A DNA stretch of 36,526 nucleotides, taken from NCBI GenBank assembly GCA_012035135.1, contig JAAUPI010000027.1:1-36526 (forward strand), read 5' to 3'. The stretch comes from Microcoleus sp. CSU_2_2. GTDB lineage: Bacteria > Cyanobacteriota > Cyanobacteriia > Cyanobacteriales > Microcoleaceae. Positions 266 through 33,165 of the stretch are shown here, piece after piece. The notes under the pieces are model-generated. The model ran no database searches. It was not told the origin of the DNA and saw nothing but the letters and a program-made list of their open reading frames with translations. Within the stretch, counting starts at the first letter, position 1. Each line of letters begins with the position of its first letter. Both the position numbers and the translations under genes were made by a program.

Positions 266-2104
266 ATGATTACTTTACCTGACATTGAAGTCTGTACCGA
301 AATCTATTCAAGCGCCAGTTCCCTGGTATATCGGGGAATCCGTCAGTCAGACAATACGCCTATCATCCTCAAAGTTCTCAAAGCAGACTATCCCACGACC
401 GCCGCATTGATTCGATCGAAACAAGAGTATGCAATTACACGATCGCTCGATATTGAAGGTGTAATTAAAGTTTACAGCCAGCAAGACTATCAGCGATCGC
501 TCGTGATGACGCTAGAGGATTTTGGTGGCGAGTCTTTAGAGAAGTTTCGGCAAGATTTACCAGAATCATACTGTCCGATGCCTCTGGCAGAATTTCTGCA
601 TCTGGCGATTCAGCTAGCAGAAATTATCGGGTCAATTCACGCATCCCAAGTTATTCACAGAGACATTAATCCCAGCAATATTGTCCTGAATCCGGCAACT
701 GGTAGGGTGAAAATCATTGATTTTGGGATTGCAACTCGCTTCTCCCGCACGAATCCGAGTTTTCAGAATCCGAATGTTTTGGAAGGCACTTTAGCTTATA
801 TCTCGCCGGAACAAACCGGGAGAATGAACCGGATCTTAGATTACCGAACTGATTTTTACTCGCTGGGTGTAACGTACTACGAGTTGCTGACTGGTCAACT
901 GCCATTTGTGACAGATGATATGCTGGAATTGGTGCATTGTCATATCGCCGGACAAGCGATCACACCTCATGAATTAAATTCAGAGATTCCGCCGATCGTC
1001 TCGGAAATTATCCTAAAATTGATGGCGAAAAATGCCGAGGATCGCTATCAGAGTGCTGCGGGGATCGAAGCAGATTTAGGAACCTGTTTGTTGCAGTTAG
1101 AGACGACGAATAAAATTGAAGCTTTTCCTTTGGGAATGCAGGATATTTCCGATCGATTTCAAATTCCCCAAAAGCTGTACGGGCGGGAAGCAGAAATTGA
1201 AACTTTATTGGCGGCATTTGAGAGAGTGGCGGGGGAAACAAAAGAACAAAATACTTATCCAAAATCTCAAATTGAATTGATTTTGGTAGCCGGGTATTCC
1301 GGGATTGGTAAGTCAGCGTTGGTGCAGGAAATTTACAAACCAATAACCCAAAAGCGGGGCTATTTTATTTCAGGTAAATTCGATCAGTTTGGGCGCAATA
1401 TTCCCTATTCTGCGATCGTCACTGCTTTTCAGTCATTGATGCGGCAAATTTTGGCAGAATCAGAAACAGCTTTGCAACAATGGCGAGATCAAATTCTGGA
1501 GGCGGTGGGTGCGATCGGGCAAGTTATTATTGATGTGATTCCCGAAGTAGAACTGATTATTGGCGCTCAACCACCTGTACCTAAAGTCGGTGCAATTGAA
1601 GCACAAAATCGCTTTAATTTGGTGTTTCAAAAATTCATTCGCGTGTTCTCTTCTCCAGAACATCCGCTCGTTATTTTTCTCGACGATCTGCAATGGGTGG
1701 ACTCAGCAACGCTGAAGTTAATTGAACTGATGATGACCGATTCAGAGACGCAATCTCTATTACTAATTGGAGCATATCGAGATCATGAAATTGATGCCGT
1801 GCACCCATTGCTGCTGCTATTGAATGAGTTACGCAGTCGATCGATTGCCGTAAATCAAATCGCCCTCGCACCGTTAGCCCTCCAGGATACTTGTCAGTTA
1901 ATCGCTGAGACATTGCACAGGGATGCAGCCTCGATCGCACCTTTGGCAGAACTCATACAGCGCAAAACGGCAGGCAATCCTTTCTTTGTCGAGCAATTCT
2001 TAAAAATGCTGTACACAGAAAACTTGATTGAGTGGGCGGGGAGGGTAAGCACGGGGGGGGGTAGGCACGGGGGCACTACCCCTACAAAACCCTGGTTTTC
2101 CTGA
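266..2104 (+). CDS. HstK-like hybrid kinase, N-terminal part: Ser/Thr kinase plus AAA ATPase (5' half of a frameshifted gene)
   Basis: The frame is open from a TTG at 218, but ATG 266 is the better start because it begins about 10 residues before the conserved EIYSSASSLVYRGIR kinase N-lobe. Residues 1-275 are a eukaryotic-type protein kinase: ATP lysine in ILKVL, catalytic HRDIN (D133), DFG (D152) and an APE-like SPE. Residues 310-600 are an AAA ATPase with Walker A GYSGIGKS (K349) and Walker B LVIFLDDLQW. The frame then runs into a G-rich insert and stops at 2104. The rest of the protein resumes in another frame (2190-7793), so the intact gene would span 266-7793, about 2,500 residues. HstK-type proteins of cyanobacteria couple a Ser/Thr kinase to a histidine kinase in the cytoplasm; the stimulus is not known here. 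Confidence 0.88.
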   Translation: MITLPDIEVCTEIYSSASSLVYRGIRQSDNTPIILKVLKADYPTTAALIRSKQEYAITRSLDIEGVIKVYSQQDYQRSLVMTLEDFGGESLEKFRQDLPESYCPMPLAEFLHLAIQLAEIIGSIHASQVIHRDINPSNIVLNPATGRVKIIDFGIATRFSRTNPSFQNPNVLEGTLAYISPEQTGRMNRILDYRTDFYSLGVTYYELLTGQLPFVTDDMLELVHCHIAGQAITPHELNSEIPPIVSEIILKLMAKNAEDRYQSAAGIEADLGTCLLQLETTNKIEAFPLGMQDISDRFQIPQKLYGREAEIETLLAAFERVAGETKEQNTYPKSQIELILVAGYSGIGKSALVQEIYKPITQKRGYFISGKFDQFGRNIPYSAIVTAFQSLMRQILAESETALQQWRDQILEAVGAIGQVIIDVIPEVELIIGAQPPVPKVGAIEAQNRFNLVFQKFIRVFSSPEHPLVIFLDDLQWVDSATLKLIELMMTDSETQSLLLIGAYRDHEIDAVHPLLLLLNELRSRSIAVNQIALAPLALQDTCQLIAETLHRDAASIAPLAELIQRKTAGNPFFVEQFLKMLYTENLIEWAGRVSTGGGRHGGTTPTKPWFS

Positions 2105-2177
2105 GAATGAAACAGTCTCACTCTGGATAAATCCCCCATCGGGGGGGGTAGGGGGTTCCGCCAAGGTAGTAGGGGGA
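2041..2177 (+). repeat. G-rich short-repeat insert with a nine-G tract inside the hybrid kinase gene
   Basis: Related proteins pass almost directly from the AAA domain into a WQW-N-AQI segment, which here begins at 2178. Between them lie about 137 bases of repeats: a G-rich stretch with a run of nine G at 2053-2061, a GTAGG...CCCCTAC inverted pair, and a second eight-G run at 2141-2148 followed by GTAGGGGG. The upstream frame stays open to 2104 and the downstream frame is open from 2049, so losing one G from the first run would join both halves and leave about 35 extra residues. Similar GTAGGGG-type repeats occur elsewhere in the window (28568, 35034). Confidence 0.6.
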
Positions 2178-2189
2178 TGGCAATGGAAT

Positions 2190-5100
2190 TTGGCTCAAAT
2201 TGAAGCACAGAATTTCACTGATAATGTGGTGGAATTGACGATCGGCAAATTGAAACAACTGCCAGAATCAACGCAGCAAGTATTAAAATTAGCTGCTTGT
2301 ATTGGCGCTGAATTTAGCTTGGATATTTTGGCGATTGTCTGCGATCGATCGGCGATTGAATTGTTTCGCACGCTGCTCGAAGCGGTGCAAGTAGGCACGA
2401 TCTTAGCTATGTCTGAATTCGATGAAAATCTGCTGATTCAAGATTATAAATTCTTGCACGATCTCGTTCAGCAAGCGGCCTATGCGTTGATTGACAAACA
2501 TCAAAAACAGGCGGTTCATTTGCAAATCGGGTTCAGTTTGTGGCAACAAACAGGGGAGCATCCCATTTTGGCAAATATCTCCTACAAATTTGGGATGTTC
2601 CCACAAACAGGGGAAAATTTATTGGAAAATGTCTTTGCAATCGTCGATCATCTCAATCTTGGCATTGAACTAGTCACAGAGTTAACAGAACGAGAGGCGA
2701 TCGCTCAATTAAATTTATTAGCAGGTCAGAAAACAAAAGCAGCAACTGCTTATAAGGCAACGCTGGCATATTTGAATACGGGGATACAATTACTGTCTGC
2801 TCAGTGTTGGGAACGCCAATATCATCTCGCTTTGACGCTACATGAAGAAGCCGCTGAAGCTGCGTATTTATGCGGGAATCTCGACGAAATGGAACGCTGG
2901 GCAACCATTGTTTTGCAACAGGCAAAAACCATTTTGGACAAAGTGAAAGTTTATGAGGTCAAGATTCAAACTTGCATCGCGCAGACTCGATTAATGGATG
3001 CGATCGCCCTGGGATTGCAAGTATTGGAACAGTTGGGAGTGATGATTCCATCGATTCCAACAGAGTTAGAAACTCAGCAGAAGTTAGAAGAAACAGCAGC
3101 TAACTTGCAGCATCAGACCATCGCGGAAATTGTCGATTTGCCTGCCATGACTGATGCTGATAAACTAGCAGCTATGCGCATTTTATCGCGATCGCTTTCC
3201 TCTGCTTATCAAGCTGCAACGGATTTGTTGCCATTTATCATCTGCGAGAAGGTGAATCTATCCCTTCACTATGGCAATGCTCCCTCTTCTGCCCAAGGTT
3301 TTGCACTTTATGGATTGCTCGTTAGCGGGACGGCTAATGATGTAGAATTAGCTTACGAGTTGGGGCAATTAGCATTAAGTATCGTTCAGCGATCGAATGC
3401 TAAAGCCGTTGATTGTAAACCTTTTCATATGGTAGCAGTTGGCACAACCCATGGCAAATCTCATGTCAGGAACTCTTTACCTTTGTTTCGACGCTCTTAT
3501 GAAAGTGCGATGGAATGCGGGGATTTTGAATATGCTAGCTATGCGGCCGAAGATGGCTGCCAGTATTCCTACTTTTGCGGCACAGAATTAACAGCACTGG
3601 CTCAAGAAATGACTCACTATGTTCGGGTAATTTCTCAACTCAAACAAGAACTCACATTAAACTATCAGGAGATTTACAGACAAAGTGTTTTTAACTTATT
3701 AGGACAGGCAGAAAATCCTGGTTTACTGGTGGGAGATGCTTACAATGAAGTGACAATGATTCCGTTTCATGTCGCTGCCAATGACATCACGGGACTGTTT
3801 TATTTCTATGTTAATAAAGTCATTTTGTGTTACTTATTTGAAGACTTGGAACGAGCAGTAGAAAGTGCTGCTTTTGCCGAACAGTATGGCGTGGGCGGTG
3901 TCACGGGCGAATTGTCGATGCCCGTGTTCCGGTTCTATGATTCGCTAATTCAGCTAGCAGCTTATTCCTCTATTTCTAGTCCAGCGCCAGATTTGCTACT
4001 GAAAGTAACCAGCAATCAGGAAAAGATGCAGCAATGGGCGCACCATGCACCCATGAATTTTCAGCATAAATACGATTTGGTAGAAGCCGAAAAAGCTAGA
4101 GTATTGGGTGATATTCTGGAAGCTGAAGAGTTGTATGAACGAGCAATTGTTGGTGCGTGTGAGAACGAATATATTCAAGAAGAAGCATTGGCTTATGAGT
4201 TAGCAGCCAAGTTTTATCTGGCGCGCGGCAGATTAAAATTTGCTTCTACTTACATGAAAGAAGCGCACTATTGCTACGATCGCTGGGGTGCAAAAGCCAA
4301 AGTTCAAGACTTAGAAAATCGCTATCCACAGTTGCTCAGTCGCGTCAGCAAATCCCCTGCGGAACATCGCTCATTTAACCCGCGATCGACCGGGGGAACG
4401 ACGAATAGCACGATCGCCTCTGTCGATTTGGCTGCTGTCATGAAAGCGGCCGGGGCCATCTCACAAGAAATTCATCTAGATCGATCGATCTCAACTTTAA
4501 TGCAGGTGGCGATCGAGAATGCTGGCGCTCAAAAAGGTTCTCTACTGTTATTAGAAGACGAGCAATTGTCGATCGTCGCTCAATGCGTTGATACTAAACA
4601 CTGCAACTTGGAGACAATACCTGTTGCCAATTGCCCCGATCTTCCCATAACCATTATTCAATATGTAGAACGCACCCAAGAACCTTTGGTGCTTGATAAT
4701 GCGGCGATCGAACCAACCTTTGCGGCTGACATTTACATTCAACAGCAACAGCCCCGATCGCTCCTCTGTCTTCCGATTCTCAAACAAAGCAAACCGATCG
4801 GCATTCTTTATTTAGAAAACAATCTGAGTACGGGAGCCTTTACTAGCGATCGTTTAGAAGTGCTGAAAATGTTGATTTCTCAAGCAGCAATTTCGTTAGA
4901 AAATGCTCGACTTTACGAACGATTAGAAGATTATTCTGAGACTTTGGAATTGAAAGTAGAGGAACGCACTCAAGCACTGCAACAAGAGATTGTCGAGCGA
5001 CTTGAAGCCGAGGAAGCTCTCAAAGCTTCGGAAGCAGAACTGAAACTGATGTTTGATGCGATGACGGATACGGTAACGGTATTTGATGCCCAAGGAAGTT

Positions 5101-7793
5101 ACCTGAAATTTATCCAAACTCAAACTTCCATGATTTATAAACCCAATATCGATCGGATTGGCAAAACCATACATGAAGTATTGCCAAAAGAGACGGCAGA
5201 TCTATTGGGAGATGCAATTGATCGGGCGCTAGTCTTGCATCAGCGATCGTCCAATTTTCTCGATTTCTCCGAATACCTTCCTCCGAATCAGGGCAGTGTA
5301 AATGTAGAATTTAGCCTGCCAATTCAGGGGAAACAAGTCTGGTTTTCTGCTAGCCTTTCCGGCTTGTCAGAGAACACCGTTCTGTGTGTAGCTCGTGACA
5401 TTAGCGATCGCAAACGCGCCGAAGAAACTCTACAAAAAAGCGAGGCAAAATTTCGCAACATCTTTGAGAATTCTCAGGTGGGAATTTTCCGAACCCGCTT
5501 TAGCGATGCTTTAATTATTGATGCCAATCAGCGTTTGGCCGATCTGCTTGGATTTGATTCACCAACTCAGATTATTGGTGTGAAACGTACCGTAGATTTC
5601 TATGTCGATCCAGGTGAGCGCCAACGCGCCAGTGAATTACTCCAGAGTTATGGCGAACTGCAAAACTTTGAAGTCCAGATGCGGAAACGCGATGGAACGC
5701 TGTTTTGGGGACTCTATTCATCCCGCCTAGAAGCTGGATATATGGAAGGGGTGATTGCTGATATTACCGATCGCAAAATAGCCGAACAAGCACTTCACCG
5801 CCGAGCCGAACTCGATAACTTGCTCAGCCAAATCTCGCGCCAGTTTATCGATCGAGACGGAGAAACCTCAATTCAACTTGCCTTAGAGTTAATTACTCGC
5901 CACATCGGTGCAGAGCGAAGTGCCATCTTTGAGTACGACAGCGATCGGACAAAATGTCAGTTAGTTTATGAATGGTGTGCGGAAAATATTCAACCTTTGA
6001 CGCCTGAAGTCAGAGAATCGAGCGTGAGTGAATATCCACTCTTGCATCAACAATTCTTGTCTGGACAAGCGTTACATACGGCGGATATCAATACAATCCC
6101 TGACGGCTCAGAGCGGCAATTATTTATCAGTCAGTCCATTCAATCGGTGTTGGCAGTACCCACGATCTATCAAGGGAAGGTGACAGGGTTTATTGGGACT
6201 GATGCCGTTCATTTTCCCAAAAATTGGAGTCAAACTGATATTAATAGCCTCAAACTTGTTGGGGAATTGATCGCGATCGGGCGAGCGAGACACAAGGCAG
6301 AAACAGCCCTACAACAAGCCAAACTGGCGGCGGAAGTTGCCAACCGCACCAAGAGCCAATTCCTAGCGAATATGAGCCACGAACTGCGAACTCCGCTGAA
6401 TATTATTCTGGGATTCACTCAACTATTGCTGCGCGATCGCTTCCTTACTGCCCAACAGCAAGAACATCTAGACACGATTACCCGCAGCGGCGAACATCTG
6501 TTGCAATTGATCAACGACGTGTTAGAAATGTCCAAAATTGAAGCAGGACGAACAAGTCTCAATGAAACTAGTTTTGACCTCTATCATCAACTCAATACCC
6601 TCGATGATATGTGGCAACCAAAAGCAACTGCTAAGGGGCTACAATTGATCGTAGAACGGCAAGCGGATGTTCCTCAATATGCGATCGCCGATGAGAGCAA
6701 ACTCCGCCAAGTTTTGATGAATTTACTATCGAATGCCATCAAGTTTACTCAGGCGGGTTGGGTGAGTTTGCGAGTTAGAATAGAGCCAGCAATAGACATC
6801 TCTCAAAAAAACTCTCTAGAACAGGCAAGATGCCTGTTCCACAATAATGATGAAAGAGAGCTAACAGACAACTATTCATCGCCCCGTCTTTGCTTCGAGG
6901 TAGAAGATACCGGAGTGGGGATTGCCACAGACGAGCTACAAATCTTGTTCAATGCTTTTGCTCAAACTGAAGCCGGTCGCAAATCTCAGCAAGGGACAGG
7001 ACTGGGACTGGCGATTAGCCGAGAATTTGTGCGGCTCATGGGCGGAAATTTGACGCTAGAAACCCAGGTGGGACAGGGAACCACGTTTCGGTTCGATCTG
7101 CCGATCGCGATCGCCACGACGGTTGTAGGTTCCCCGCAGCAGCAGTCTCAGCGTGTAATTGGGTTAGCGCCCGATCTACCACGCTATCGCTTGCTGGTAG
7201 TAGAAGATCGTTGGGAGAATCGCCAGTTGCTGATGGGACTGCTGGAACCTTTGGGCTTTGAAATCCAGCAAGCCGTGAACGGACAAGAAGCGATCGACCT
7301 CTGGGAATCCTTTGCCCCTCATCTGATTTGGATGGATCTGCGGATGCCCGTGATCGATGGCTACGAAGCGACGAAACACATCAAATCGCAGCTTAAGGGA
7401 CAGGCGACGGTGATTATTGCCATCACGGCCAGCGCCTTTGAAGAAGAACGGGTGGTGGCGCTATCGGCGGGCTGCGATGATTTTATTCGCAAACCATTCC
7501 GCGAGGCGGAAATTTTTGAGAAAATGGCGCAACACTTGGGGGTGAGTTATCGCTACGAACCGATCGTCTTACCCGTTAAGCCTGAGGTGACGCCATCCGA
7601 TGTGACGATCGCACTATTAGAGAAAATGCCCGCCCCATGGCGAGAACAACTTCACCAAGCCGCCACTGAGGTTGATGCCGAGCAAATTGTTCAGCTTATT
7701 CATCAAATCCCACCGGAAGATGCTAGTCTGGCTCTGGCGATCGCCGATTTGGTGAATCAATATCGGTTCGATCGGATTGTTGAGTTAACCTAA
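2190..7793 (+). CDS. HstK-like hybrid kinase, C-terminal part: GAF-PAS-PAS-GAF-histidine kinase-receiver
   Basis: This is the continuation of the 266 gene in a different frame; the frame is open from 2049, and TTG 2190 is only the first start-like codon. Approximate residues: helical/TPR-like region of the AAA-associated type 1-720; GAF 750-905; coiled coil 905-945; PAS 949-1072 and 1082-1195; GAF 1220-1370; HisKA with SHELRTPLN (H1397); HATPase with NLLSNAIKF near 1510 and a DTGVGI box; receiver domain 1664-1785 with phospho-acceptor Asp in LIWMDLRMP (D1716). This is a hybrid histidine kinase that can autophosphorylate and pass phosphate to its own receiver. A palindromic repeat encodes about nine extra residues inside the ATPase domain (6818-6844). 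The next two genes encode a second receiver-kinase and a response regulator, so a shared relay is likely. Confidence 0.88.
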   Translation: MAQIEAQNFTDNVVELTIGKLKQLPESTQQVLKLAACIGAEFSLDILAIVCDRSAIELFRTLLEAVQVGTILAMSEFDENLLIQDYKFLHDLVQQAAYALIDKHQKQAVHLQIGFSLWQQTGEHPILANISYKFGMFPQTGENLLENVFAIVDHLNLGIELVTELTEREAIAQLNLLAGQKTKAATAYKATLAYLNTGIQLLSAQCWERQYHLALTLHEEAAEAAYLCGNLDEMERWATIVLQQAKTILDKVKVYEVKIQTCIAQTRLMDAIALGLQVLEQLGVMIPSIPTELETQQKLEETAANLQHQTIAEIVDLPAMTDADKLAAMRILSRSLSSAYQAATDLLPFIICEKVNLSLHYGNAPSSAQGFALYGLLVSGTANDVELAYELGQLALSIVQRSNAKAVDCKPFHMVAVGTTHGKSHVRNSLPLFRRSYESAMECGDFEYASYAAEDGCQYSYFCGTELTALAQEMTHYVRVISQLKQELTLNYQEIYRQSVFNLLGQAENPGLLVGDAYNEVTMIPFHVAANDITGLFYFYVNKVILCYLFEDLERAVESAAFAEQYGVGGVTGELSMPVFRFYDSLIQLAAYSSISSPAPDLLLKVTSNQEKMQQWAHHAPMNFQHKYDLVEAEKARVLGDILEAEELYERAIVGACENEYIQEEALAYELAAKFYLARGRLKFASTYMKEAHYCYDRWGAKAKVQDLENRYPQLLSRVSKSPAEHRSFNPRSTGGTTNSTIASVDLAAVMKAAGAISQEIHLDRSISTLMQVAIENAGAQKGSLLLLEDEQLSIVAQCVDTKHCNLETIPVANCPDLPITIIQYVERTQEPLVLDNAAIEPTFAADIYIQQQQPRSLLCLPILKQSKPIGILYLENNLSTGAFTSDRLEVLKMLISQAAISLENARLYERLEDYSETLELKVEERTQALQQEIVERLEAEEALKASEAELKLMFDAMTDTVTVFDAQGSYLKFIQTQTSMIYKPNIDRIGKTIHEVLPKETADLLGDAIDRALVLHQRSSNFLDFSEYLPPNQGSVNVEFSLPIQGKQVWFSASLSGLSENTVLCVARDISDRKRAEETLQKSEAKFRNIFENSQVGIFRTRFSDALIIDANQRLADLLGFDSPTQIIGVKRTVDFYVDPGERQRASELLQSYGELQNFEVQMRKRDGTLFWGLYSSRLEAGYMEGVIADITDRKIAEQALHRRAELDNLLSQISRQFIDRDGETSIQLALELITRHIGAERSAIFEYDSDRTKCQLVYEWCAENIQPLTPEVRESSVSEYPLLHQQFLSGQALHTADINTIPDGSERQLFISQSIQSVLAVPTIYQGKVTGFIGTDAVHFPKNWSQTDINSLKLVGELIAIGRARHKAETALQQAKLAAEVANRTKSQFLANMSHELRTPLNIILGFTQLLLRDRFLTAQQQEHLDTITRSGEHLLQLINDVLEMSKIEAGRTSLNETSFDLYHQLNTLDDMWQPKATAKGLQLIVERQADVPQYAIADESKLRQVLMNLLSNAIKFTQAGWVSLRVRIEPAIDISQKNSLEQARCLFHNNDERELTDNYSSPRLCFEVEDTGVGIATDELQILFNAFAQTEAGRKSQQGTGLGLAISREFVRLMGGNLTLETQVGQGTTFRFDLPIAIATTVVGSPQQQSQRVIGLAPDLPRYRLLVVEDRWENRQLLMGLLEPLGFEIQQAVNGQEAIDLWESFAPHLIWMDLRMPVIDGYEATKHIKSQLKGQATVIIAITASAFEEERVVALSAGCDDFIRKPFREAEIFEKMAQHLGVSYRYEPIVLPVKPEVTPSDVTIALLEKMPAPWREQLHQAATEVDAEQIVQLIHQIPPEDASLALAIADLVNQYRFDRIVELT
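6818..6844 (+). repeat. 27-bp palindromic repeat in frame inside the histidine kinase ATPase domain
   Basis: A near-perfect palindrome (arms GAACAGGCA and TGCCTGTTC around AGA) is read in frame as LEQARCLFHN. The same 27 bases occur once more, inverted, at 33307-33333 between genes. It sits between the N box and the DTGVGI box of the ATPase domain, in a segment that varies in length in this family. Confidence 0.85.
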
Positions 7794-10673: not shown

Positions 10674-10698
10674 CTATCAACTATCAACTGTCAACTGA
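10674..10698. repeat. CAACTAT/CAACTGT heptamer repeats
   Basis: Three to four heptamers of the family ACAGTTG/ATAGTTG in tandem. On the minus strand they supply the last codons (QLTVDS) and the TGA stop of the GGDEF gene. Similar arrays lie at 16058, 21293, 22324 and 33364. Confidence 0.85.
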
Positions 10699-11213
10699 CT
10701 TACAGCCACTCGATCGCGCCCCTCGGACTTAGCTCGATAAAGTGCTTTATCCGCCGCTTCAATTAACATTTTTGGGGAATTTTGACCTTCCGAAATAGTA
10801 GCAACTCCCATACTCAGAGTCACCGAATTGCTAACAACAGACTTCTGGTGGGGAATTGCTAGGGCTTTGATGTGGCTGCGGATTTGCTCAGCAACAGCTT
10901 GTGCAGCCGCAAGATCCGTATTCGGCAAAATTACTGAAAATTCCTCGCCACCATACCTAGCGGCCAAATAAATGCTTTCTGTGGGTACATTCTCTGCCAC
11001 ATTTGCGATCGCCCTCGCCACTTGCTGCAAGCAAGCATCCCCGGCTTGGTGTCCGTAATTGTCGTTGTAAAGTTTAAAACAGTCAATGTCGCACATGATT
11101 AAAGATAGCGGTTCCGAACTGCTGCACTGTTCCCACTCCCAGTTCAAAAACTCGTCAAATCGGCGACGGTTCGCTAACTGAGTCAGACTGTCCAGATTCA
11201 CCAACCCGTCCAA
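10677..11213 (-). CDS. GGDEF diguanylate cyclase domain (3' part of a frameshifted sensor gene)
   Basis: This is a complete GGDEF domain of 178 residues: DSLTQLANRRRF opening motif, a CDIDCFKLYND metal-binding segment, and GGEEF at 88-92, an active-type signature, so it should make cyclic di-GMP from two GTP. The inhibitory RxxD site normally just before GGEEF is absent. The frame continues upstream of ATG 11213 as ELAAANEQL, matching the linker expected after the GAF domain encoded by 11231-14635; one missing G near 11230 separates the two. The true product is almost certainly one protein of about 1,320 residues. The last residues are encoded by heptamer repeats. Confidence 0.88.
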   Translation of the reverse strand: MDGLVNLDSLTQLANRRRFDEFLNWEWEQCSSSEPLSLIMCDIDCFKLYNDNYGHQAGDACLQQVARAIANVAENVPTESIYLAARYGGEEFSVILPNTDLAAAQAVAEQIRSHIKALAIPHQKSVVSNSVTLSMGVATISEGQNSPKMLIEAADKALYRAKSEGRDRVAVSQLTVDS

Positions 11214-11230: not shown

Positions 11231-14200
11231 CTAGCTCTGGTAAAGTAAAGATTGTTCGATCGCGATCGCCACCTGCGTGCTCAACTGACTCAGCAAATCC
11301 ACATCAAACTTCTGCCATTTGCGGGGTGCAGAACAGTGATGGGCGATCAGCAAACCCCACAACTTTGGTACTTGGCAAGAAGGATTACCGTCCCGATTTT
11401 GGATGCCCTGCTGCAAAATCGGCACTACCAAATTCGCCCTCACCTGACACTGGGCCAAAAAACTGACGTGACACTCGGCAAAATTAGAAGCGTGAATGTC
11501 CTCCACCGATCGAATTCGGCCCTTCACATACTGTCCGACATAAGAATTGGCAAAACAGCAATCGTCTGTAGACATTCCCAAAAGTGGCATCCACTCCTCC
11601 CCAACCGACTCTACCACCACATCTCCGTTCCAGTCTGGCCGGAAGTGGAAAACGATCACTCGATCGGTTGCCAAAAACTCCCGGACTTCCGCTACTGTAG
11701 TGTTGAGAATATCTTTGAGATCGAGAGAAGAACGGATGCGAGATTGGATCTGTGTTACCAGCCGTTCGCGCTCTACTTGCTGCCGCAGTGCGACTTGTAC
11801 TTGCTTGCTTTGAGTAATATCTCGACCTTCCGGTAGCAGCAACACAATTTTGCCAGTTTCATCCGCAACTGGTTTCAGAGAAAAGTCAACAATTGCTGTC
11901 CGACTGATACCTTTAACTTCGACTTCGTAGCGCACAAATTCGCCTTTTGCCGATCGGGCGATCGCTTCTTTCAACTGTTCCCTAATTTCCGGAGAACTCC
12001 CCCACCAAGGCCCCTGCCAAAACGGCCGATTTGCTACATCTCTGAGCTTAATTCCCGCAAAATCCAGAGAAGTTTGGTTGGCTTCTAGCAGAGTGCCGTC
12101 CGGTTTCAACAAACTCACAAATTGAAACGAAGAATCAAAAATTGCCCGAAAGCGCCTTTGACTGTCTCCCAACATTGCCGTCACCTTTTCACGAGAAGTA
12201 ATGTCGCGGAAGCGCCACACTCGACCAATAATATTTTGTCCGACCCGAATCGGCTGCGTGTAGCGCTCAAAAGTGCGGCCATCTTTAAATTCGAGAATGT
12301 CGCAGCTTTCTGCCTCCGCATTGTTGTAAATTTCTTGAACTCTACCCAAGAAAGCTCTCGGATCTTTGACTTGTTTGGTCAGAAATGTCAGCCTCACCGT
12401 TCTGTCCATCGAGTTTCTGACTTCTTCAGAAATTCCCCACATTTGAACTAACTTTTCGTTAAAACTAATAAGTTCTCCGGCTGTAGTAACGGCGAGAATA
12501 CCGTCGGCTGTTGCTTCTAATGTGGCGTGCAACAGAGAAACAGATCGATTTAATTCTGCTTCAATTAATTTGCGTTCTGTGAGATCTCGCACTGCTTTTA
12601 CCTGTACCAAACGACCTTCGCAGACCACGAATTTGCTGCGAACATCAGCGGGAAAAGCAGTCCCGTCTCGCCTGAGAAAAATAGTTTCGCAGACTATATT
12701 GCTGGCTGCGGAAATCATTTGTGGGGCCGATTTGTAAGATTGTGGCGACAGCAATTCCAGCAGGCTCATCCCCACCATTTCCTCTGGTTCGTAGCCAAAT
12801 AACTCGGCAAAAGTTTTGCTGACACTCAAAATTGTCTCGCGATCGGCTACGGCAACTGCTTCAAAATAAGCTTCGCATTCGAGCAAGCGCGTTGCTGCTT
12901 CGCTGTTGCTAGTTTCTATTGAATCGCGATTTTTAATTAGCTGTTGCAGTTGTGTATTTGCGGAGTACAAAGCTGTCATCGCCTGCCTGTACATCCCAGT
13001 GCGTTTTTCTACTTTTTCTTCGAGTCGATGGCGGTAAGCTCGAAGTTGTTTTTCTACTCGGATTAAATCGGTGATATCTACTGCAAAAACTATCACGCCC
13101 GTGACTTGACCTGTTTCATCGCGAAAAGGTATTTTGTCTGTCCGCACCCAGCATTTTTGACCGGTGGCAGTTGGCAGGGGTTCGATTTTTCCCAATTTGG
13201 GAATACCTGAATTGATTACTTCTAAATCTTCTCGGTAATATTGCTCTGCCTCGTCGGGATAGATTTCATAAAAAGATTTTCCTTCTAATTGGGCAGCGGG
13301 CAAACCTCTAGATGCAGCGGCGGCTTGGTTAATTCGTAGCAGGCGACTTTCGGTATCTTTGTACCAAATCAGCGCCGGTACGGAATCAAAAATAATTTGC
13401 TGTTCTTGCTGCTGGCGACGCAATTCGGCTTCTACTAGTTCTCTTTTAATTATTTCTTCTTGCAGTTGTTTGTTAGCTTTTTTGAGTTCGGCAGTGCGCC
13501 TTTCTACTCTTTCTTCTAGTTGGTCGTAGTATTGACTCAGCAAATTGTGCTGCTGTTCGCGCCGCATTGCTTCTAATTTAACTTGTTCGCTAGCTTCTAA
13601 ACAGGTCGATACAAAATCTGCTAGTATTTTGGTGAATTCCTGTTCTTCTTCCGTCCACTGGCTACCCGAATTCGCGCGTTCGGTACTGACGATTCCCACC
13701 ATTTCGCCTGCCAGCAAAATCGGTACGCTTAATAAGGAAGTAATGCCTCGATCGGCAAAATAAACGCTGGCAAGTTCTCGCGTTCTTGGGTCAGTTTCTG
13801 CCGACGTTGCTGCGACTACTGTTGCAAATTTTAATGCTTGAAAATAAGCCGGACAATCGGCTGCTGTGATGATTATTTGTACGGAATGGAGTTTGGTATT
13901 TTGTTCGTAAAGGTCAATGCAGTGGAGGTGCGTGTGGTTTTCGCCGTACAGCCAAATGCTGGCTCGATCGACTTCTAAAATATTAACAGCGGTTTCTGTT
14001 ATTTCTCGGATGAATCCTTCTATCTTGTTGCGTTCTTTAGTTTGACTTTTTGCTAATTTTGCGATCGCTTGAGTTTGCCTGCGCCAAATTTTTCGATCGT
14101 TTGTCGGCGCTACTGCAACTTTTGCTGTCAGAATTTCTTGGCAAATCAGCAGTACAGTTGGCAGTTGGAAATTGGCAACATAAGAACTATTTTCATCTAT

Positions 14201-14635
14201 TTCCCAGCCAGCTTTCGGTATGGGGTGCGCGGTTGCTTTTACCCAAATAATCTTGCCATCTTTGCAGGTCAAACTACCTTCCCAAGCAGCAATTGTTCGC
14301 GCATCTCCCTTATTTTCTTGGTGTGCCAACGCAGCAAATTCTGCTTCCAGCTTCCCTCGATCTTGACAGTAAAATATGTTGAAAATAGAATGAGAAACCA
14401 GTTCTTGAGGAGTATAAGCGAGGATAGACGCGCCGAATTGATTGAGTGAAAAAACTCTTCCCAAAGCGTCTAAAACGAAATAAATGCCCGGAAAATTGTC
14501 GTAGAGAGTGCGATACCAATCCCTTTCGAGTTCTCTGTTGCCAGAGATGCTTGCTGTCGGCAATTCATCACAGATTTCAGGGCGGTGAGAATTGTTTGTT
14601 TCTGGGTTGCTGGAATGGTTTTTTTTAGCAAACAC
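11231..14635 (-). CDS. Multi-PAS/GAF sensor with DXCF cyanobacteriochrome GAF (5' part of the diguanylate cyclase gene)
   Basis: A 1,134-residue sensor, no membrane segment. Rough order: PAS 35-150, GAF 205-345, coiled coil 350-405, PAS 410-530, coiled coil 535-580, PAS 585-690, PAS 695-815, PAS 820-940, GAF 960-1133. The last GAF has the canonical bilin cysteine followed by histidine (ECH, C1055-H1056), the VRANLVVPIL strand and LWGLLIAHHC, plus a DCCF sequence (1025-1028) that fits the DXCF motif whose second cysteine (C1027) tunes blue/green or blue/teal photocycles in this class. The last residues run out of frame one base short of the GGDEF linker, stopping at 11231. Function inferred: light-controlled cyclic di-GMP synthesis. 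Confidence 0.88.
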   Translation of the reverse strand: MFAKKNHSSNPETNNSHRPEICDELPTASISGNRELERDWYRTLYDNFPGIYFVLDALGRVFSLNQFGASILAYTPQELVSHSIFNIFYCQDRGKLEAEFAALAHQENKGDARTIAAWEGSLTCKDGKIIWVKATAHPIPKAGWEIDENSSYVANFQLPTVLLICQEILTAKVAVAPTNDRKIWRRQTQAIAKLAKSQTKERNKIEGFIREITETAVNILEVDRASIWLYGENHTHLHCIDLYEQNTKLHSVQIIITAADCPAYFQALKFATVVAATSAETDPRTRELASVYFADRGITSLLSVPILLAGEMVGIVSTERANSGSQWTEEEQEFTKILADFVSTCLEASEQVKLEAMRREQQHNLLSQYYDQLEERVERRTAELKKANKQLQEEIIKRELVEAELRRQQQEQQIIFDSVPALIWYKDTESRLLRINQAAAASRGLPAAQLEGKSFYEIYPDEAEQYYREDLEVINSGIPKLGKIEPLPTATGQKCWVRTDKIPFRDETGQVTGVIVFAVDITDLIRVEKQLRAYRHRLEEKVEKRTGMYRQAMTALYSANTQLQQLIKNRDSIETSNSEAATRLLECEAYFEAVAVADRETILSVSKTFAELFGYEPEEMVGMSLLELLSPQSYKSAPQMISAASNIVCETIFLRRDGTAFPADVRSKFVVCEGRLVQVKAVRDLTERKLIEAELNRSVSLLHATLEATADGILAVTTAGELISFNEKLVQMWGISEEVRNSMDRTVRLTFLTKQVKDPRAFLGRVQEIYNNAEAESCDILEFKDGRTFERYTQPIRVGQNIIGRVWRFRDITSREKVTAMLGDSQRRFRAIFDSSFQFVSLLKPDGTLLEANQTSLDFAGIKLRDVANRPFWQGPWWGSSPEIREQLKEAIARSAKGEFVRYEVEVKGISRTAIVDFSLKPVADETGKIVLLLPEGRDITQSKQVQVALRQQVERERLVTQIQSRIRSSLDLKDILNTTVAEVREFLATDRVIVFHFRPDWNGDVVVESVGEEWMPLLGMSTDDCCFANSYVGQYVKGRIRSVEDIHASNFAECHVSFLAQCQVRANLVVPILQQGIQNRDGNPSCQVPKLWGLLIAHHCSAPRKWQKFDVDLLSQLSTQVAIAIEQSLLYQS

Positions 14636-14932: not shown

Positions 14933-15162
14933 ATGATAACATTCAAATATCTAGTGTTGGAACGAATTTACTTGAGTTTGGGTTTGGGATATTTTCCCGG
15001 TTTGGGGATGAACCGAGGGGGGTCTCAATTGCTGGGTCAGCTTTGGCGGTGGCTTTGGGGATACTCGATCTGAATACTGCTTGGGAGGTGATCGACCCGG
15101 GTACGATCGTTTTTTTATTTGGAATGATGGCCGTTAATTCGGCTTTGAGTCAATATTTTTAA
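14933..15162 (+). pseudogene. N-terminal fragment of an SLC13/ArsB-type anion permease, frameshifted
   Basis: From ATG 14933 the frame reads LSLGLGYFPGLGMNR and then, after a one-base slip at the six-G run near 15016-15021, continues as GSALAVALGILDL, TAWEVIDPGTIVFLFGMM and VNSALSQYF before TAA at 15160. These are the first two to three membrane segments of the anion/arsenite permease superfamily, whose full proteins exceed 400 residues. Only about 75 codons remain, so the gene is dead. It lies 12 bases ahead of ureD and may contribute its promoter region. Confidence 0.6.
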
Positions 15163-15174: not shown

Positions 15175-16065
15175 GTGACTGAAACTTTGCCAGAACAACA
15201 TACAGATAACGTTCAAAATGGATGGCACGGCTATCTCAATTTAGCTTACGCTAACCGCAACGGCGAAACTCAAATTATTCGCAATCAAATGCAAGCGCCA
15301 CTGAAAGTACAGCGTCCGTTTTATCCCGAAGGAAAAGAGGTTTGTCACAGCGTAATCTTGCACACGGCTGGGGGAGTTGTCGGGGGCGATCGACTTTCTT
15401 TGAATTTTCACCTCCAACCCAGCGCCCAAGCCTTAATCACCACGGCTGCTGCTGGCAAAATTTATCGCAGCAACGGAAAGCAATCACGACAAAATATTAA
15501 AATCCAAGTAGATGCTGGTGCTAATTTAGAATGGCTACCACAGGAAACAATAGTTTTTGACGGTGCCATTTACAGGCAAGATTTGCGGGTAGAATTAGCG
15601 GTAGGAGCAAGTATCTTGCTGTGGGAAATAGTGCGGTTTGGACGCACTGCCAGAGGCGAAAAATTTTTGTCGGGAAAATGGCGATCGCACGCCGAGATCT
15701 GGCAGCAAAACCGCCCTTTGTGGATTGACAGACAATTGATCGCAGGTGGAGAAGAAATGCTCGAAAGCTCTCACGGGTTAGCAGGAAAACCCGTAGTCGC
15801 TACCCTTGCTTGGGTAGGCGAACCCGTCACATCGGAGATAGTGGAAAAAGTTCGAGCTTTGTGGTGCGAGAAAATGATTTCTCCTTCATCCTTCGCAGTG
15901 AATTCAAGCGTTGGCGTTACTCGCATCCCAAGTGGTTTACTGTGTCGATATCGAGGTTCTTCGACTGCTGAGGCTAGAGACTGGTTTGTCGGTATTTGGC
16001 AATTGCTGCGCTTGTCTTTTTCGGAACGCCTTAGCTGTTTGCCTAGAGTTTGGATAAACAGTTGA
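15175..16065 (+). CDS. ureD: Urease accessory protein UreD
   Basis: A 296-residue protein of normal length for UreD/UreH, a cytoplasmic chaperone that binds apo-urease and, with UreF and UreG, allows nickel delivery and lysine carbamylation. Diagnostic stretches are VILHTAGGVVGGDRL (about residues 60-75), ITTAAAGKIYRS, NLEWLPQETIVFDGA and LLWEIVRFGRTARGE. The start is GTG 15175, with no good ribosome site, directly behind the permease fragment. The stop TGA (16063-16065) is supplied by an ACAGTTGA heptamer repeat, so the last two residues (NS) are probably repeat-derived. ureA follows about 500 bases downstream, with an MNT gene relic between. ureE, ureF and ureG are not in the window. Confidence 0.96.
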   Translation: MTETLPEQHTDNVQNGWHGYLNLAYANRNGETQIIRNQMQAPLKVQRPFYPEGKEVCHSVILHTAGGVVGGDRLSLNFHLQPSAQALITTAAAGKIYRSNGKQSRQNIKIQVDAGANLEWLPQETIVFDGAIYRQDLRVELAVGASILLWEIVRFGRTARGEKFLSGKWRSHAEIWQQNRPLWIDRQLIAGGEEMLESSHGLAGKPVVATLAWVGEPVTSEIVEKVRALWCEKMISPSSFAVNSSVGVTRIPSGLLCRYRGSSTAEARDWFVGIWQLLRLSFSERLSCLPRVWINS

Positions 16066-16081
16066 CAGTTGATAGTTAACA
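16058..16081. repeat. ACAGTTG-type heptamer repeats at the ureD stop
   Basis: Three heptamers (ACAGTTG, ACAGTTG, ATAGTTA) in tandem; the first contains the stop codon of ureD. The same family lies at 10674, 21293, 22324 and 33364. Confidence 0.85.
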
Positions 16082-16256
16082 GCGAAAATCCGAAAGTCTT
16101 GCTACGAATAGATGTATAAAAATCATTGATGGCAAGGCTTTCACAGTTAAAAGGCTAAAAAAGAAAAGAGAAATGGTATAAACCCTTGACGTTTTAGATA
16201 AAAATGCTATTTAATATTTGCTACAATCATTTCAAGTATTTTCTCTCACAACGCTG

Positions 16257-16440
16257 ATGAATAAACTGCAACAGATGCCCCCAATAACAAGCTCAACAAC
16301 TTACCGTTAATGTTACCCTCGAAAAGATAGCCGAGTTTTGCCAGAAATATTCGATCGACAAACTTTCCCTTTTCGGTTCTTTGCTAAGGTCCGATTTTAG
16401 ATCGGATAGTGATGATGACGAGACTGAGATCGATCGCGTA
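16257..16440 (+). pseudogene. Degraded MNT-type nucleotidyltransferase (antitoxin-like) fragment
   Basis: The frame from about 16294 reads LTVNVTLEKIAEFCQKYSI, then KLSLFGSLLRSDFRSDSD, which is the GSxxRxD...SD signature of minimal nucleotidyltransferases, typically the antitoxin of HEPN/MNT pairs. After the second SD it loses similarity (DDETEIDR) where DVDVLVEF would be expected. A possible start ATG 16257 is in another frame and meets a stop at 16308. No HEPN partner is visible. A TTGACG with an AT-rich -10 region lies upstream (16186-16217). This is a relic lodged between ureD and ureA. Confidence 0.6.
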
Positions 16441-16564
16441 TGCTGGATACAACAAAAGAGACTATTTTATTTTCCGAAAACTCAAGCGTAACCGACCTTA
16501 ACACCAACCGGATGTTAACACTATTTTTGGTCAAATATTTCGATCCGCCTTCACCAGAATAACA

Positions 16565-16867
16565 ATGCAACTCACACCCCAAGAAAAAGACAAGCTGTTG
16601 ATTTTTACTGCCGCCCTGTTAGCAGAGCGCCGAAAACAAAGAGGTTTAAAATTAAACTATCCAGAAGCATTAGCCTATATTTCTGCCGCGATTTTAGAAG
16701 GGGCAAGAGACGGCCTCACTGTTGCAGATTTAATGAGTTACGGCACAACTCTTCTGACGCGGGAGGATGTGATGGAAGGAATACCAGAAATGGTACGTGA
16801 AGTTCAGGTTGAGGCGACTTTTCCCGATGGAACTAAGTTGGTGACAGTGCACGATCCGATTCGCTAA
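16565..16867 (+). CDS. ureA: Urease gamma subunit UreA
   Basis: A 100-residue protein, exactly the usual length of the separate gamma subunit of bacterial urease, which hydrolyses urea to ammonia and carbamate as a (UreA-UreB-UreC)3 complex in the cytoplasm. Family stretches: [45 protein letters not shown], the METG-equivalent [18 protein letters not shown], and a C-terminal [19 protein letters not shown]. ureB starts 42 bases downstream, so the two are surely cotranscribed. No ribosome site better than weak is visible before ATG 16565. No GTA-N8-TAC NtcA box was found upstream. Confidence 0.97.
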
Positions 16868-16909
16868 TATTCGCTACTAATTGAATATAGATACTGGCAG
16901 GAAAACGAT

Positions 16910-17221
16910 ATGATTCCAGGCGAAATGATGGTTTTAGACGGAGAGATAGAATTAAATGCCGATCGTCTAACGGTGCGGTTGTTAGTGGCAAATACGGGCG
17001 ATCGTCCAATTCAAATTGGTTCTCACTATCATTTTTATGAAGTGAACGAAGCCTTAAAATTTAATAGAGAACAAGCAAAAGGAATGCGATTGGACATTCC
17101 CGCAGGTACCGCAGTGAGGTTTGAACCGGGAGATGAAAGGGAAATTCAATTAGTACCTTTTGTCGGCAGCCGTCGAGTTTATGGCTTTAATGGGAGAGTA
17201 AACGGTCAGTTAGTTTTATAA
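16910..17221 (+). CDS. ureB: Urease beta subunit UreB
   Basis: A 103-residue protein of normal length. Family stretches: MIPGEM at the start, [21 protein letters not shown], a [14 protein letters not shown] strand pair and the closing [17 protein letters not shown]. It forms the outer layer of the urease trimer and contacts UreC. An AGGA ribosome site lies before ATG 16910. The neighbour downstream is not ureC, as in most operons, but a GT61 glycosyltransferase 76 bases on. Confidence 0.97.
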
Positions 17222-17297
17222 CTTTTGACTGAGTGAATATCGGTAATTTGCGATCGAAAATAGTTTTTACAATCGCAAGTATAAAAGGCAAAACCAC

Positions 17298-18428
17298 ATG
17301 ATGAATCCAAAATTAGTTGACCAGCTAAAACTGCTGTTGAAGCAGAGTTTGCTGGCTACTTCGAGGCGCGTCTGGAGAACACCGTTAGACCGCCGTACCA
17401 GCGTCAAATTGTTAAAAGGTGATATCGTTTACAAAAATCATCATGAGTCGATCGACCTACCTGCATTAGCCTCGGTAAATGGAGTGCCTTCTCGCTATTT
17501 TCCCACGGAAAAAACCGTGTCTTTTGACCCAGATTATGTTTGGCAAATTTCGGTGAAGGAACAAATAGATTCTATAACTATTTGTACCTCTGGGAATACA
17601 CTGCTAAATCATAAGTTGCTGTTAGACTTGGATTTTCGCATTAGCGGTGCGGGTATTCTGGAATGGCCTTACAAACCCAAGCAAATTACTTATCCGCTGG
17701 TAGTTGCTCCTTGGTCGCATTTGTGGTGCAGTTATTACGATTATGTCATTTTTGTGCTTGCTAAACTTTGTCGAATAGAGAAGGCTTTAGGTAAGGAAGT
17801 TTGGCAAGAAGCAAAAATTTGTTATCCTCTGCGACATACGAGTTTTGAGTTGGGATTTATGGCAAAATTAGGGATTCCTGAAAGTTCGCTAATCGATACT
17901 CGCGTTAGAGATACAGGATACCATGCAGAATCAGTTGTGTTGGGAAACAATCAAGATTGGTATTGTCCCAGCCCTTACGATATAAAACTTTTGCGGAGCA
18001 AATTCTGTCTTCAGGAAAATGTAAAGCCTTACAGAAAAATCTATTTATCTAGAAAGGGGCGGCGCCAAGTTAAAAATGAGGCGCAAGTGCGAGAGGTGTT
18101 GAAAGAGTTTGATTTTGAAATTTTAGAAGATATCGATCGCACTGTTGAAGAACAAATTCGCCTGTTTGCAGAAGCGGCTGTGGTTGTCGGCCCTCACGGC
18201 GCTGCTTTTACAAATTTACTTTGGTGTCAACCCGGTACTAAAGTAATGGAATTCTTTTATGGAGGGTATACTCCACCATTCTTTTATTATATTTGTCAGC
18301 TATTGGGCTTAGAATACTCCTGTATGTTTGATGATAGCGATGCCTCCGAGGATTGGAGTTTAATCGGAGAGGATATGACGGTGGATGTGGCTGTTTTGAA
18401 AAGTGAAATCAAGAAAATGTTAGAGTAA
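17298..18428 (+). CDS. GT61-family (DUF563) glycosyltransferase
   Basis: A 376-residue protein. The C-terminal half carries the family hallmark: RKIYLSRKG, a VVVGPHGAAFTNLLWCQPG motif around residues 293-311 and VMEFF. These enzymes transfer sugars (often xylose or related) to polysaccharides or glycoproteins; bacterial members usually sit in capsule or O-antigen loci. There is no signal peptide or membrane helix. It starts at ATG 17298 (a second ATG follows directly) with an AAAGG ribosome site. It is wedged between ureB and ureC in the same direction, which has no obvious functional logic, and is followed by repeat-rich DNA, so an insertion into the urease operon is likely. Confidence 0.85.
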   Translation: MMNPKLVDQLKLLLKQSLLATSRRVWRTPLDRRTSVKLLKGDIVYKNHHESIDLPALASVNGVPSRYFPTEKTVSFDPDYVWQISVKEQIDSITICTSGNTLLNHKLLLDLDFRISGAGILEWPYKPKQITYPLVVAPWSHLWCSYYDYVIFVLAKLCRIEKALGKEVWQEAKICYPLRHTSFELGFMAKLGIPESSLIDTRVRDTGYHAESVVLGNNQDWYCPSPYDIKLLRSKFCLQENVKPYRKIYLSRKGRRQVKNEAQVREVLKEFDFEILEDIDRTVEEQIRLFAEAAVVVGPHGAAFTNLLWCQPGTKVMEFFYGGYTPPFFYYICQLLGLEYSCMFDDSDASEDWSLIGEDMTVDVAVLKSEIKKMLE

Positions 18429-18458
18429 ACTCAGTCGTAGACTTATAAAGTCTACTCG

Positions 18459-18553
18459 TAGGGTGCTCTTCGGCGCACCTGATATCATGTCAGATTAATC
18501 AGTCATCATTTGAGTGCGAGCGTCCCGCTCGCTCGGGCGCGACGCTCGCACTC
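18459..18553. repeat. Repeat cluster with a strong hairpin between GT61 and ureC
   Basis: 18459-18479 is a truncated copy of the GTAGGGTGC...GCGCACC inverted repeat. At 18512-18553 GAGTGCGAGCGTC pairs perfectly with GACGCTCGCACTC around a 16-base loop that is itself GC-rich. A hairpin this strong could stop or attenuate transcription into ureC. Confidence 0.75.
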
Positions 18554-18694
18554 GTTAATAAATACAAGCGATCGATCGAACTTGATATTACTGATTTTAA
18601 ATATTTCAAAAATCAGATTGACGAACTCGCTACAGAGTATAATTGGACTGAGCTTAAACTGCTAACTGAAAATTTATTAATATTAGGAGAAAGC

Positions 18695-20443
18695 ATGAGT
18701 TACAGAATGCGTCGTCGCGCTTACGCAGAAACATTCGGGCCGACAACCGGCGATCGCGTGCGTTTAGCGGATACAGAATTATTCATAGAAGTTGAAAAAG
18801 ATTTCACAACCTACGGCGATGAAGTGAAATTTGGCGGCGGTAAAGTCATCCGCGACGGTATGGGACAATCGCCTATTTCTAATGCTGATGGTGCAGTTGA
18901 CACGGTAATTACTAATGCTTTAATATTGGATTGGTGGGGGATTGTTAAAGCAGATATTGGCATTAAAGACGGCAAAATTTTCAACATTGGGAAAGCCGGA
19001 AATCCTTACATTCAAGATAGAGTAGATATTATTATCGGGCCCGGCACAGAAGTAATTGCCGGCGAAGGAATGATCGTTACCGCAGGGGGAATTGACTCTC
19101 ACATTCACTTTATTTGTCCGCAGCAAATAGAAGTGGCGATCGCCTCTGGAATTACCACAATGATCGGCGGCGGAACAGGCCCAGCAACTGGTACAAACGC
19201 AACTACTTGTACTCCCGGCCCTTGGCATATGTACAGAATGCTGCAAGCAGCCGAAGCTTTCCCCGTTAATATCGGATTTTTAGGTAAGGGAAATAGCAGT
19301 CAACCCCAAGGATTAGTCGAACAAATATTTGCCGGTGCAATGGGTTTGAAACTTCACGAAGATTGGGGAACTACACCTGCAACGATCGACACCTGTTTGA
19401 GTGTAGCTGACGAGTACGACGTGCAAGTGGCAATTCACACGGATACTCTCAACGAAGCGGGATTTGTGGAAGCTACAATTGCCGCTTTTAAGAATCGGGC
19501 GATTCACACTTATCACACCGAAGGTGCAGGTGGCGGACACGCACCAGATATTATTAAAATTTGCGGCCAAGCTAATGTTTTACCTTCGTCAACTAACCCG
19601 ACTCGCCCTTACACTGTCAATACATTGGAAGAACATTTAGATATGTTGATGGTTTGCCACCATTTAGATCGGGGTATTCCTGAAGATGTGGCTTTTGCTG
19701 AATCGAGAATTAGAAGAGAGACTATTGCTGCTGAAGATATTTTGCATGATTTAGGCGCGTTTAGCATGATTTCTTCTGACTCGCAAGCAATGGGAAGAGT
19801 TGGGGAAGTGATTATTAGGACTTGGCAAACAGCACATAAAATGAAAGTGCAGCGGGGTAATTTGCACGGGCAAGATGCCGGAAATTTGGACGGGCAAGAT
19901 GCCAATCCCACAAATAGTGAAAATGACAATTTTCGGGCAAAGCGGTACATTGCTAAATACACAATTAATCCGGCGATTACTCACGGAATTAGTCAGTATG
20001 TCGGTTCGGTGGAAGAGGGGAAATTGGCGGATTTGTGTTTGTGGAGGCCTGCATTTTTTGGCGTGAAACCGGAAATGGTGATTAAGGGAGGTGCGATTGC
20101 CTACGCGCAGATGGGAGATGCTAACGCCAGCATTCCCACGCCACAACCGGTGCATATGCGGCCGATGTTTGGCAGTTTTGGTGGTGCGATTGGGGCAACT
20201 TCTCTAACGTTTGTTTCTCAAGCTGCGTGCGATCGAGATATTGCAGGACAGCTAGGTTTACAAAAGCCAACTGTAGCAGTTTCGGGCACGCGGCAAATTA
20301 GTAAAAGAGACATGAAACTCAACGATTATTTGCCAGAAATGGAAGTCGATCCTGAAACTTATGAAGTCCGGGCTGATGGAGAATTACTAATTTGCGAACC
20401 GGCAACTGTTTTGCCAATGGCGCAGCGTTACTTTTTGTTTTGA
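18695..20443 (+). CDS. ureC: Urease alpha (catalytic) subunit UreC
   Basis: A 582-residue catalytic subunit. Nickel ligands are present: H136 and H138 (SHIHF), carbamylated K219 (LKLHEDWG), H248 (IHTDT), H274 ([10 protein letters not shown]) and D362 (SSDSQAMGR); the mobile-flap catalytic residues CHHLD (C321-H322) are intact. It should therefore be active with UreA and UreB. The length is about 13 residues above the usual 567-570 because of an insert at 389-404 ([15 protein letters not shown]) between the KVQRG strand and NDNFRAKRY, encoded by a duplicated repeat. A clear AGGAG ribosome site precedes ATG 18695. The same frame stays open upstream through 18570-18694, in a stretch with coding-like composition. 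Confidence 0.97.
19862..19909 (+). repeat. 24-bp tandem duplication with CAAGATGCC core inside ureC
   Basis: Two adjacent 24-base units (starting at 19862 and 19886) share ACGGGCAAGATGCC and are read in frame as LHGQDAGN and LDGQDANP. The core CAAGATGCC is the same as in the palindromes at 6818 and 33307. The other UreC segments show no such extra length. Confidence 0.85.
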
Positions 20444-24183: not shown

Positions 24184-25446
24184 ATGCAAGACTTTGATGC
24201 AATTGTAATTGGTAGCGGCATTGGCGGCTTAGTCGCTGCCTCAATGCTAGCCCGCTACCGCAAGCGGGTACTCGTCTGCGAAAGCCACACAATACCGGGC
24301 GGCGCGGCTCATAGTTTTTCGCGGCGGGGATTTCACTTTGATTCTGGGCCATCTTTTTATTGCGGGTTGACAGATCCGCAGTCGTTCAATCCTTTGCGGC
24401 AAGTATTTGATATTTTGGAGGAATCGATCGCTACAATTCCCTACCACCCCCTGGGACATTATCATTTTCCTGAGGGCAGTTTGCCGATTTACGCTAATGC
24501 CAAAAATTACTTAGATACTGTAGCTACGTTCGCACCACAAGGTGCTAAAGAATTGCAGAAATTTCAACAAAATTTATTAGTTTTGTACGAGGCTTTGCGG
24601 GGAATTCCGGCGGTGGCGCTGCGTTCGGACTGGCAATTGATACCCGTTTTGTTAACGCGGTATTGGCCGTCTTTGTTGAAGTTGCTGCCGCTAATAGGTA
24701 CGATCGCAGGTTCTGCGGGTGAGTTGATGGATCGCGACGTGCGCGATCCTTGGGTGCGACGTTTGATCGATTTGGAATGCTTTTTGTTGTCTGGTTTAAA
24801 AGCGCATGAAACTGTTGCGCCGGAAATCGCTTTTATGATTGGCGAACGATCGCGATCGATTATAGAATATCCTGTCGGCGGTAGCAGTGCGATCGTCGAT
24901 GCTTTAGTTCGAGGTTTGCAGCGCTGGGGAGGACAGTTACGACTGGGAACTCATGTCGATCGAATTTTAGTTACATCCGGCAAAACAACCGGTATTCGCT
25001 TGCAAAATGGCGAAATTATCCGCGCGCCAATTGTCATCTCAAATGCGACTATTTGGGATACTTATACTAAGTTATTGGGGGATGAAGATGTGCCTGTAGA
25101 CGATCGTAAAGTTGCTTTATCAACGCCTGCGGTAGAGAGTTTCATGCACCTGCATTTAGGAATTAAAGCCGAGGGATTGGAAGGTTTGACCGGCCACCAC
25201 GTCGTCGTTCATGACAGCAATATTGACATTACAGTACCCGGAAATACTTGCATGATTTCGATTCCGACAGTCTGGGATCAAAATCTCGCGCCCGCCGGAC
25301 ATCATGCCATTCATGCTTATACTTTAGAACCTTACGAAGGTTGGGAATACGGCGAATTTTATCAGGAAAAAAAACGAGAGCGATCGCAGTCTCTTTTTAA
25401 AGCTTTAGAAAAATCATACCAGATTTGCGACAGCGGATCGTATTAG
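24184..25446 (+). CDS. CRTISO/CrtI-like FAD oxidoreductase, N-terminal part (frameshifted gene)
   Basis: The first 420 residues of a phytoene-desaturase/carotenoid-isomerase-like flavoprotein. It opens with the Rossmann motif VIGSGIGGLVAASMLA and an ESHTIPGGAAHSF second motif, followed by RRGFHFDSGPSF; a VGGSSAIVDALVRGL stretch near residue 240 is also typical. The last 14 residues (YQICDSGSY) are out of frame: one A missing from the A-run at about 25408-25412 would give EKIIPDLRQRIVLESIGTP and join the frame starting at 25425. The intact gene would be 24184-25682, about 499 residues, the usual length. Carotenoid desaturation or isomerisation is likely but the exact substrate is not assignable. 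Confidence 0.88.
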   Translation: MQDFDAIVIGSGIGGLVAASMLARYRKRVLVCESHTIPGGAAHSFSRRGFHFDSGPSFYCGLTDPQSFNPLRQVFDILEESIATIPYHPLGHYHFPEGSLPIYANAKNYLDTVATFAPQGAKELQKFQQNLLVLYEALRGIPAVALRSDWQLIPVLLTRYWPSLLKLLPLIGTIAGSAGELMDRDVRDPWVRRLIDLECFLLSGLKAHETVAPEIAFMIGERSRSIIEYPVGGSSAIVDALVRGLQRWGGQLRLGTHVDRILVTSGKTTGIRLQNGEIIRAPIVISNATIWDTYTKLLGDEDVPVDDRKVALSTPAVESFMHLHLGIKAEGLEGLTGHHVVVHDSNIDITVPGNTCMISIPTVWDQNLAPAGHHAIHAYTLEPYEGWEYGEFYQEKKRERSQSLFKALEKSYQICDSGSY

Positions 25447-33159: not shown

Positions 33160-33165
33160 AGAAAT

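Follow-up and report, generated by a model that had tools for sequence, protein, structure and literature searches.

The window, a stretch of 36,526 nucleotides from contig JAAUPI010000027.1 of Microcoleus sp. CSU_2_2 (assembly GCA_012035135.1), raises the question of whether a cyanobacteriochrome GAF domain and a GGDEF domain encoded side by side on its minus strand form one light-controlled diguanylate cyclase, as had been proposed from the sequence alone. The features concerned are as follows:

11231..14635, minus strand: sensor ORF of 1134 aa with a GTG start, domain order PAS-GAF-PAS-PAS-(PAS)-PAS-GAF, ending at TAG 11231-11233
11258..11722, minus strand: DXCF-type cyanobacteriochrome GAF, residues 972-1126 (by Pfam GAF, nearest solved chains and predicted model)
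11552..11563, minus strand: DCCF motif (D1025, C1026, C1027, F1028), with C1027 aligned opposite the second cysteine of TePixJ
11468..11473, minus strand: canonical C1055-H1056 (by alignment with TePixJ)
11447..11449, minus strand: C1063, a cysteine constant in the genus of the window and its sister genus
11231..11240, minus strand: linker site, one base short in alignment with relatives and then closed by the stop
10677..11213, minus strand: GGDEF ORF, 178 aa from TTG, in a frame different from that of the sensor ORF and open from a stop at about 11306
10938..10952, minus strand: GGEEF signature within the GGDEF ORF

Five PAS domains and another GAF had been read by eye upstream of the C-terminal GAF. 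The upstream GAF (residues 206-346) and four of the PAS regions (about 41-139, 416-524, 595-687, and 833-944) scored above the Pfam cut-offs, while the remaining PAS region (about 701-817) fell below them (PAS_8 at 20.5 against 21.8 bits, PAS_7 at 17.5 against 27). The GGDEF domain was complete in Pfam (2e-51) and its signature, GGEEF, is of the active type. RxxD was absent from its usual place before GGEEF, both in the window and in 60 genus and three sister-genus loci (all those whose stretch was printed), which agrees with the earlier description of an active-type domain without the inhibitory site; such a cyclase would therefore lack the usual product brake.

The attachment of the GAF to the GGDEF, as the sequence-only reading had it, fails for the sequence as printed, because the TAG at 11231-11233 closes the sensor ORF directly after the GAF and ORF analysis places the GGDEF in another frame. 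A tblastn search with the ORFs of relatives returned the same two-frame picture. In the gene family, by contrast, the attachment is real. When 38 relatives were searched with a match threshold of E 1e-100 or better, the gene was matched in 22, comprising 22 of the 23 members of the genus of the window and 0 of the 15 others. In 21 of these 22 a single frame of 1316-1339 codons encodes both GAF and GGDEF, and the two are likewise in one frame in all three sister-genus genomes. The 22nd (G003) runs out of contig shortly after the GAF, its linker being in frame up to that point (L088), and has a further break on the upstream side (L053/L054). Compared with all 21 aligned relatives, the linker of the window lacks one base, at about 11236-11238. 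Thus a single polypeptide carrying both domains, as in the SesA type, is encoded in 21 of the 22 genus relatives with the gene and not in the window, and the frame break is no property of the gene family. As this case illustrates, reading domains by eye can carry a chain across a frame break.

For the one-base shortfall, an error in the sequence or its assembly is a more probable cause than a real and recent loss. The assembly consists of 357 contigs and is 84.31% complete, and of 19 genes at 14.7-36.5 kb for which at least one of two relatives offered a counterpart, 18 are in one frame and one is split. The latter is an FAD-dependent oxidoreductase-like gene (24184-25679; Pfam Amino_oxidase, NAD_binding_8) whose frames part near 25413; its ORF (24184-25446) is one base short at the break, and in relatives the gene is one frame of about 500 codons. 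Values of omega for the window against 24 relatives were 0.156 (GAF) and 0.150 (GGDEF), compared with 0.136 and 0.146 among the relatives themselves, in a pairwise dN/dS test that is weak for a recent event and would miss a recent loss. Gene decay is therefore unsupported by this test, neither piece showing relaxed selection. Taken together, the second one-base break, the 84% completeness and the lack of relaxed selection make error look likelier than loss.

It is possible, without being likely, that the frame break is real in the strain. The product would then be a 1134-aa sensor without output, accompanied at most by a separate 178-aa GGDEF protein made by re-initiation at TTG 11213, and light control of the cyclase would be lost. 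The sequence as printed does show the break, that TTG lies only 18 bases beyond the stop, and the transporter gene next to it (14933-15147), itself broken in frame, is a remnant, so some real decay nearby is possible. Against this, neither piece shows excess amino-acid change, neither ORF contains another stop, the conserved oxidoreductase gene is likewise one base short, and the assembly, in 357 contigs, is incomplete. An error in the assembled sequence remains our preferred explanation.

The C-terminal GAF of the sensor ORF is, by sequence, a DXCF-type cyanobacteriochrome GAF, and in this the sequence-only reading was borne out. DCCF and C1055-H1056 stand in the translation at the residues it gave, and the alignment it had named as a possible refutation, made with a TePixJ sequence checked against the solved chains, placed DCCF in the same columns as the TePixJ DPCF (the Asp-Xaa-Cys-Phe motif) and ECH opposite ECH, with C1055-H1056 in the columns of the TePixJ CH, so that both motifs fall on the TePixJ cysteine positions. 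The solved chains nearest in sequence are bilin-binding GAFs, namely 6oap (5.2e-49), RcaE (7.4e-39), miRFP670nano (6.8e-35), and TePixJ (2.4e-29). The top match counts against the DXCF reading, as 6oap has DQYF, without a cysteine at the DXCF site. A predicted model of the GAF (pLDDT 88.3, pTM 0.86) retrieved the same set of bilin-binding chains in a fold search, 4glq (TePixJ) with a TMt of 0.90, although GAF folds would be expected to match one another anyway.

Other cyanobacteriochrome types were compared with the window GAF as well. The Trp of WXDXXL is given as a mark of the XRG lineage in a passage of PMC11284453; the corresponding position, two places before D1025 as placed via the alignments, is T in the window. 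Insert-Cys cyanobacteriochromes, compared by description, have their second Cys, according to PMC5240096, in an insertion loop, as part of a CXXR/K motif. The sole insertion seen in the window GAF carries C1087, which sits in a hairpin after VVP in the predicted model, and reads SCQVPK, with no CXXR and with K coming next at CQVPK. In AM1_1186g2, a section of PMC6628166 locates the second Cys in helix alpha3. C1063 lies just beyond the C1055-bearing helix of the predicted model, and a parallel between the two, again by description, is offered as a lead only.

DCCF, CH and C1063 were present in all 63 genus loci examined, which represent 27 distinct GAF sequences, since many loci are repeat retrievals of a single gene. 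GGEEF is in frame with the GAF in 60 of these loci, and the other three are one contig ending there. The retention of both cysteine motifs throughout the 63 is more than chance. In the sister genus, the orthologues of all three genomes have DPCF, C1063 and GGEEF in one frame. This bears on the suggestion that the GAF retains the motifs as a structural or ligand-binding module only and is not a working photoreceptor, which we regard as unlikely. Binding is not proven by motifs alone, and the canonical CH is missing from several related GAFs of the same genome; D, C1027, F, C1055 and H1056 are nevertheless retained in 63 of 63 genus and three of three sister-genus loci. The domain thus appears to be a photoreceptor domain of the ordinary kind, and a SesA-like output is ascribed only to the intact relatives.

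The adjacent C1026-C1027 pair had been called unusual, which is true outside the group and not within it, where the pair is constant. In the aligned column, DCCF was absent from all 31 remaining loci of that genome-contig scan, and it was likewise absent from all 23 further GAFs in the alignment for the genome of the window (24 rows including the window's own, with six partial loci excluded and six further matches not included), eight of these 23 having an ordinary D-x-C-F. In a tree of 41 GAFs the seven DCCF rows grouped together (100/100), without a firm place among the other types. The simplest story is that the X position changed from Pro to Cys on the way to the genus of the window and was retained since, although this direction is inferred. 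Our search found no open-licence paper naming 'DCCF' together with 'cyanobacteriochrome'. It is conceivable, at rather long odds, that an oxidised vicinal thiol pair C1026-C1027 would be unable to add to bilin C10 and would leave the sensor in its red-shifted colour, light colour and redox poise thus being read together, or, as a variant, that C1026 would serve as a second nucleophile giving two blue states. The role of the pair is a point of possible interest to specialists, as the fixed DCCF amounts to a natural experiment at the sole free position of the DXCF motif for which the sister-genus DPCF orthologues provide the control.

From these motifs, the alignment, the pattern of conservation and the frame break, this stretch probably encodes the light-sensing end of a diguanylate cyclase with several sensor domains, of the SesA kind and without RxxD, conserved in the Microcoleus/Tychonema group, the gene being interrupted here, probably by error. 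In such a protein the GAF would bind a linear bilin through C1055, either phycocyanobilin or phycoviolobilin made from it, and C1027 of the DXCF motif would add reversibly to C10, giving one state with blue or violet absorption. The photocycle would consist of photoisomerisation at C15=C16, which would break or remake the C1027-C10 bond and shift the linker helix, and this coupling would, in the intact gene, set the cyclase activity of the following GGDEF as in SesA. The upstream PAS and GAF domains would feed in other signals, and the usual product brake would be missing from the output. Programmed -1 frameshifting yielding a short sensor and a long sensor-cyclase is very improbable and was rejected, since the two frames do overlap (11231 to about 11305) but the overlap holds no X XXY YYZ slippery heptamer and all 21 aligned relatives have a plain single frame.

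The supply of bilin was considered in the same assembly, in which heme oxygenase, PebA and PebB were found. PcyA is the maker of phycocyanobilin; it gave no match over the cut-off in this assembly, which counts against the proposed reading, and was found in 21 of the 23 genomes searched, the two without it being that of the window and G003, the least complete of the 23. Contig C52 of the same genome carries a PF05996 bilin reductase gene with an in-frame stop and a frame change (L137, about 869-1419). As a sign of assembly error this gene would need to be PcyA; its letters resemble, by eye, those of an intact PebB-scoring neighbour on C210, and the argument from C52 was therefore dropped.

The closest known system is SesA (Tlr0924) of Thermosynechococcus, compared by description, which passages of PMC5871770, PMC8846402, and PMC4223177 present as a blue-activated diguanylate cyclase of the DXCF group. 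Product inhibition of SesA requires its RxxD. The gene family of the window shares with it the DXCF GAF and the GGDEF output and differs in having Cys at X, no RxxD and other upstream modules, in addition to the broken frame in the window itself. If the intact relatives act like SesA, blue light would feed into c-di-GMP in the Microcoleus group, M. vaginatus HSN003 (L083) included, through a cyclase lacking the product brake. The GAF of TePixJ (4glq, 4fof, 3vv4, 2m7u) resembles that of the window in both cysteine sites and in fold; however, it has DPCF, lacks the insertion after VVP, and belongs to an annotated methyl-accepting chemotaxis protein and not to a cyclase. In the sister-genus orthologues (L135, L136, L144) a single frame of 714-733 codons likewise runs through a GAF and then GGEEF, and C1063 is retained, but they have DPCF and are shorter, lacking the greater part of the PAS and GAF modules in the middle. 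Identity between L135 and the window ORF is 43% in the N-terminal part and 52% at the GAF end.

Within roughly 40 kb surrounding the gene in each of four relatives, no other ORF of the window was matched (by relatives' ORFs of at least 150 codons, above 60% identity), and a comparison with plasmids gave no match. Conservation in most genus loci extends about 500 bases upstream of the sensor gene, as far as 15147. This segment includes the beginning of a CitMHS/ArsB-like transporter gene of divergent sequence (14933-15147), present in the window as a frame-broken remnant that ends at 15147, 28 bases before ureD; the CitMHS-like transporter is whole in G020 (L060, 397 codons) and looks like a remnant in G018 too. 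The remnant in the window represents either a rearrangement or a wrong assembly join. Beyond it lie ureD and the urease gamma, beta, and alpha genes (15175-20443), beta and alpha being separated by a Glyco_transf_61 gene (17298-18428), in an order shared with G001 and G018. Antisense within the urease alpha gene, the Rfam family 5' ureB sRNA (RF02514) was matched at 18850-19136 with 118 bits against a cut-off of 40, a match that may reflect conserved coding sequence only.

Two further observations concern the ends of the window. About 120 bases at 33163-33283, in the N-terminal part of ORF 32521-33321, have more than ten near copies in G001. At the other end, a kinase-AAA-like ORF (218-2104, so labelled by reading) and a GAF-PAS-histidine kinase ORF (2190-7793) occupy different frames and look like one gene (218-7793). 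The matches of relatives to the first ORF lie mostly in open frames of about 1800-2100 codons, and the G-rich stretch between the two ORFs, at about 2040-2190, resembles an insertion.
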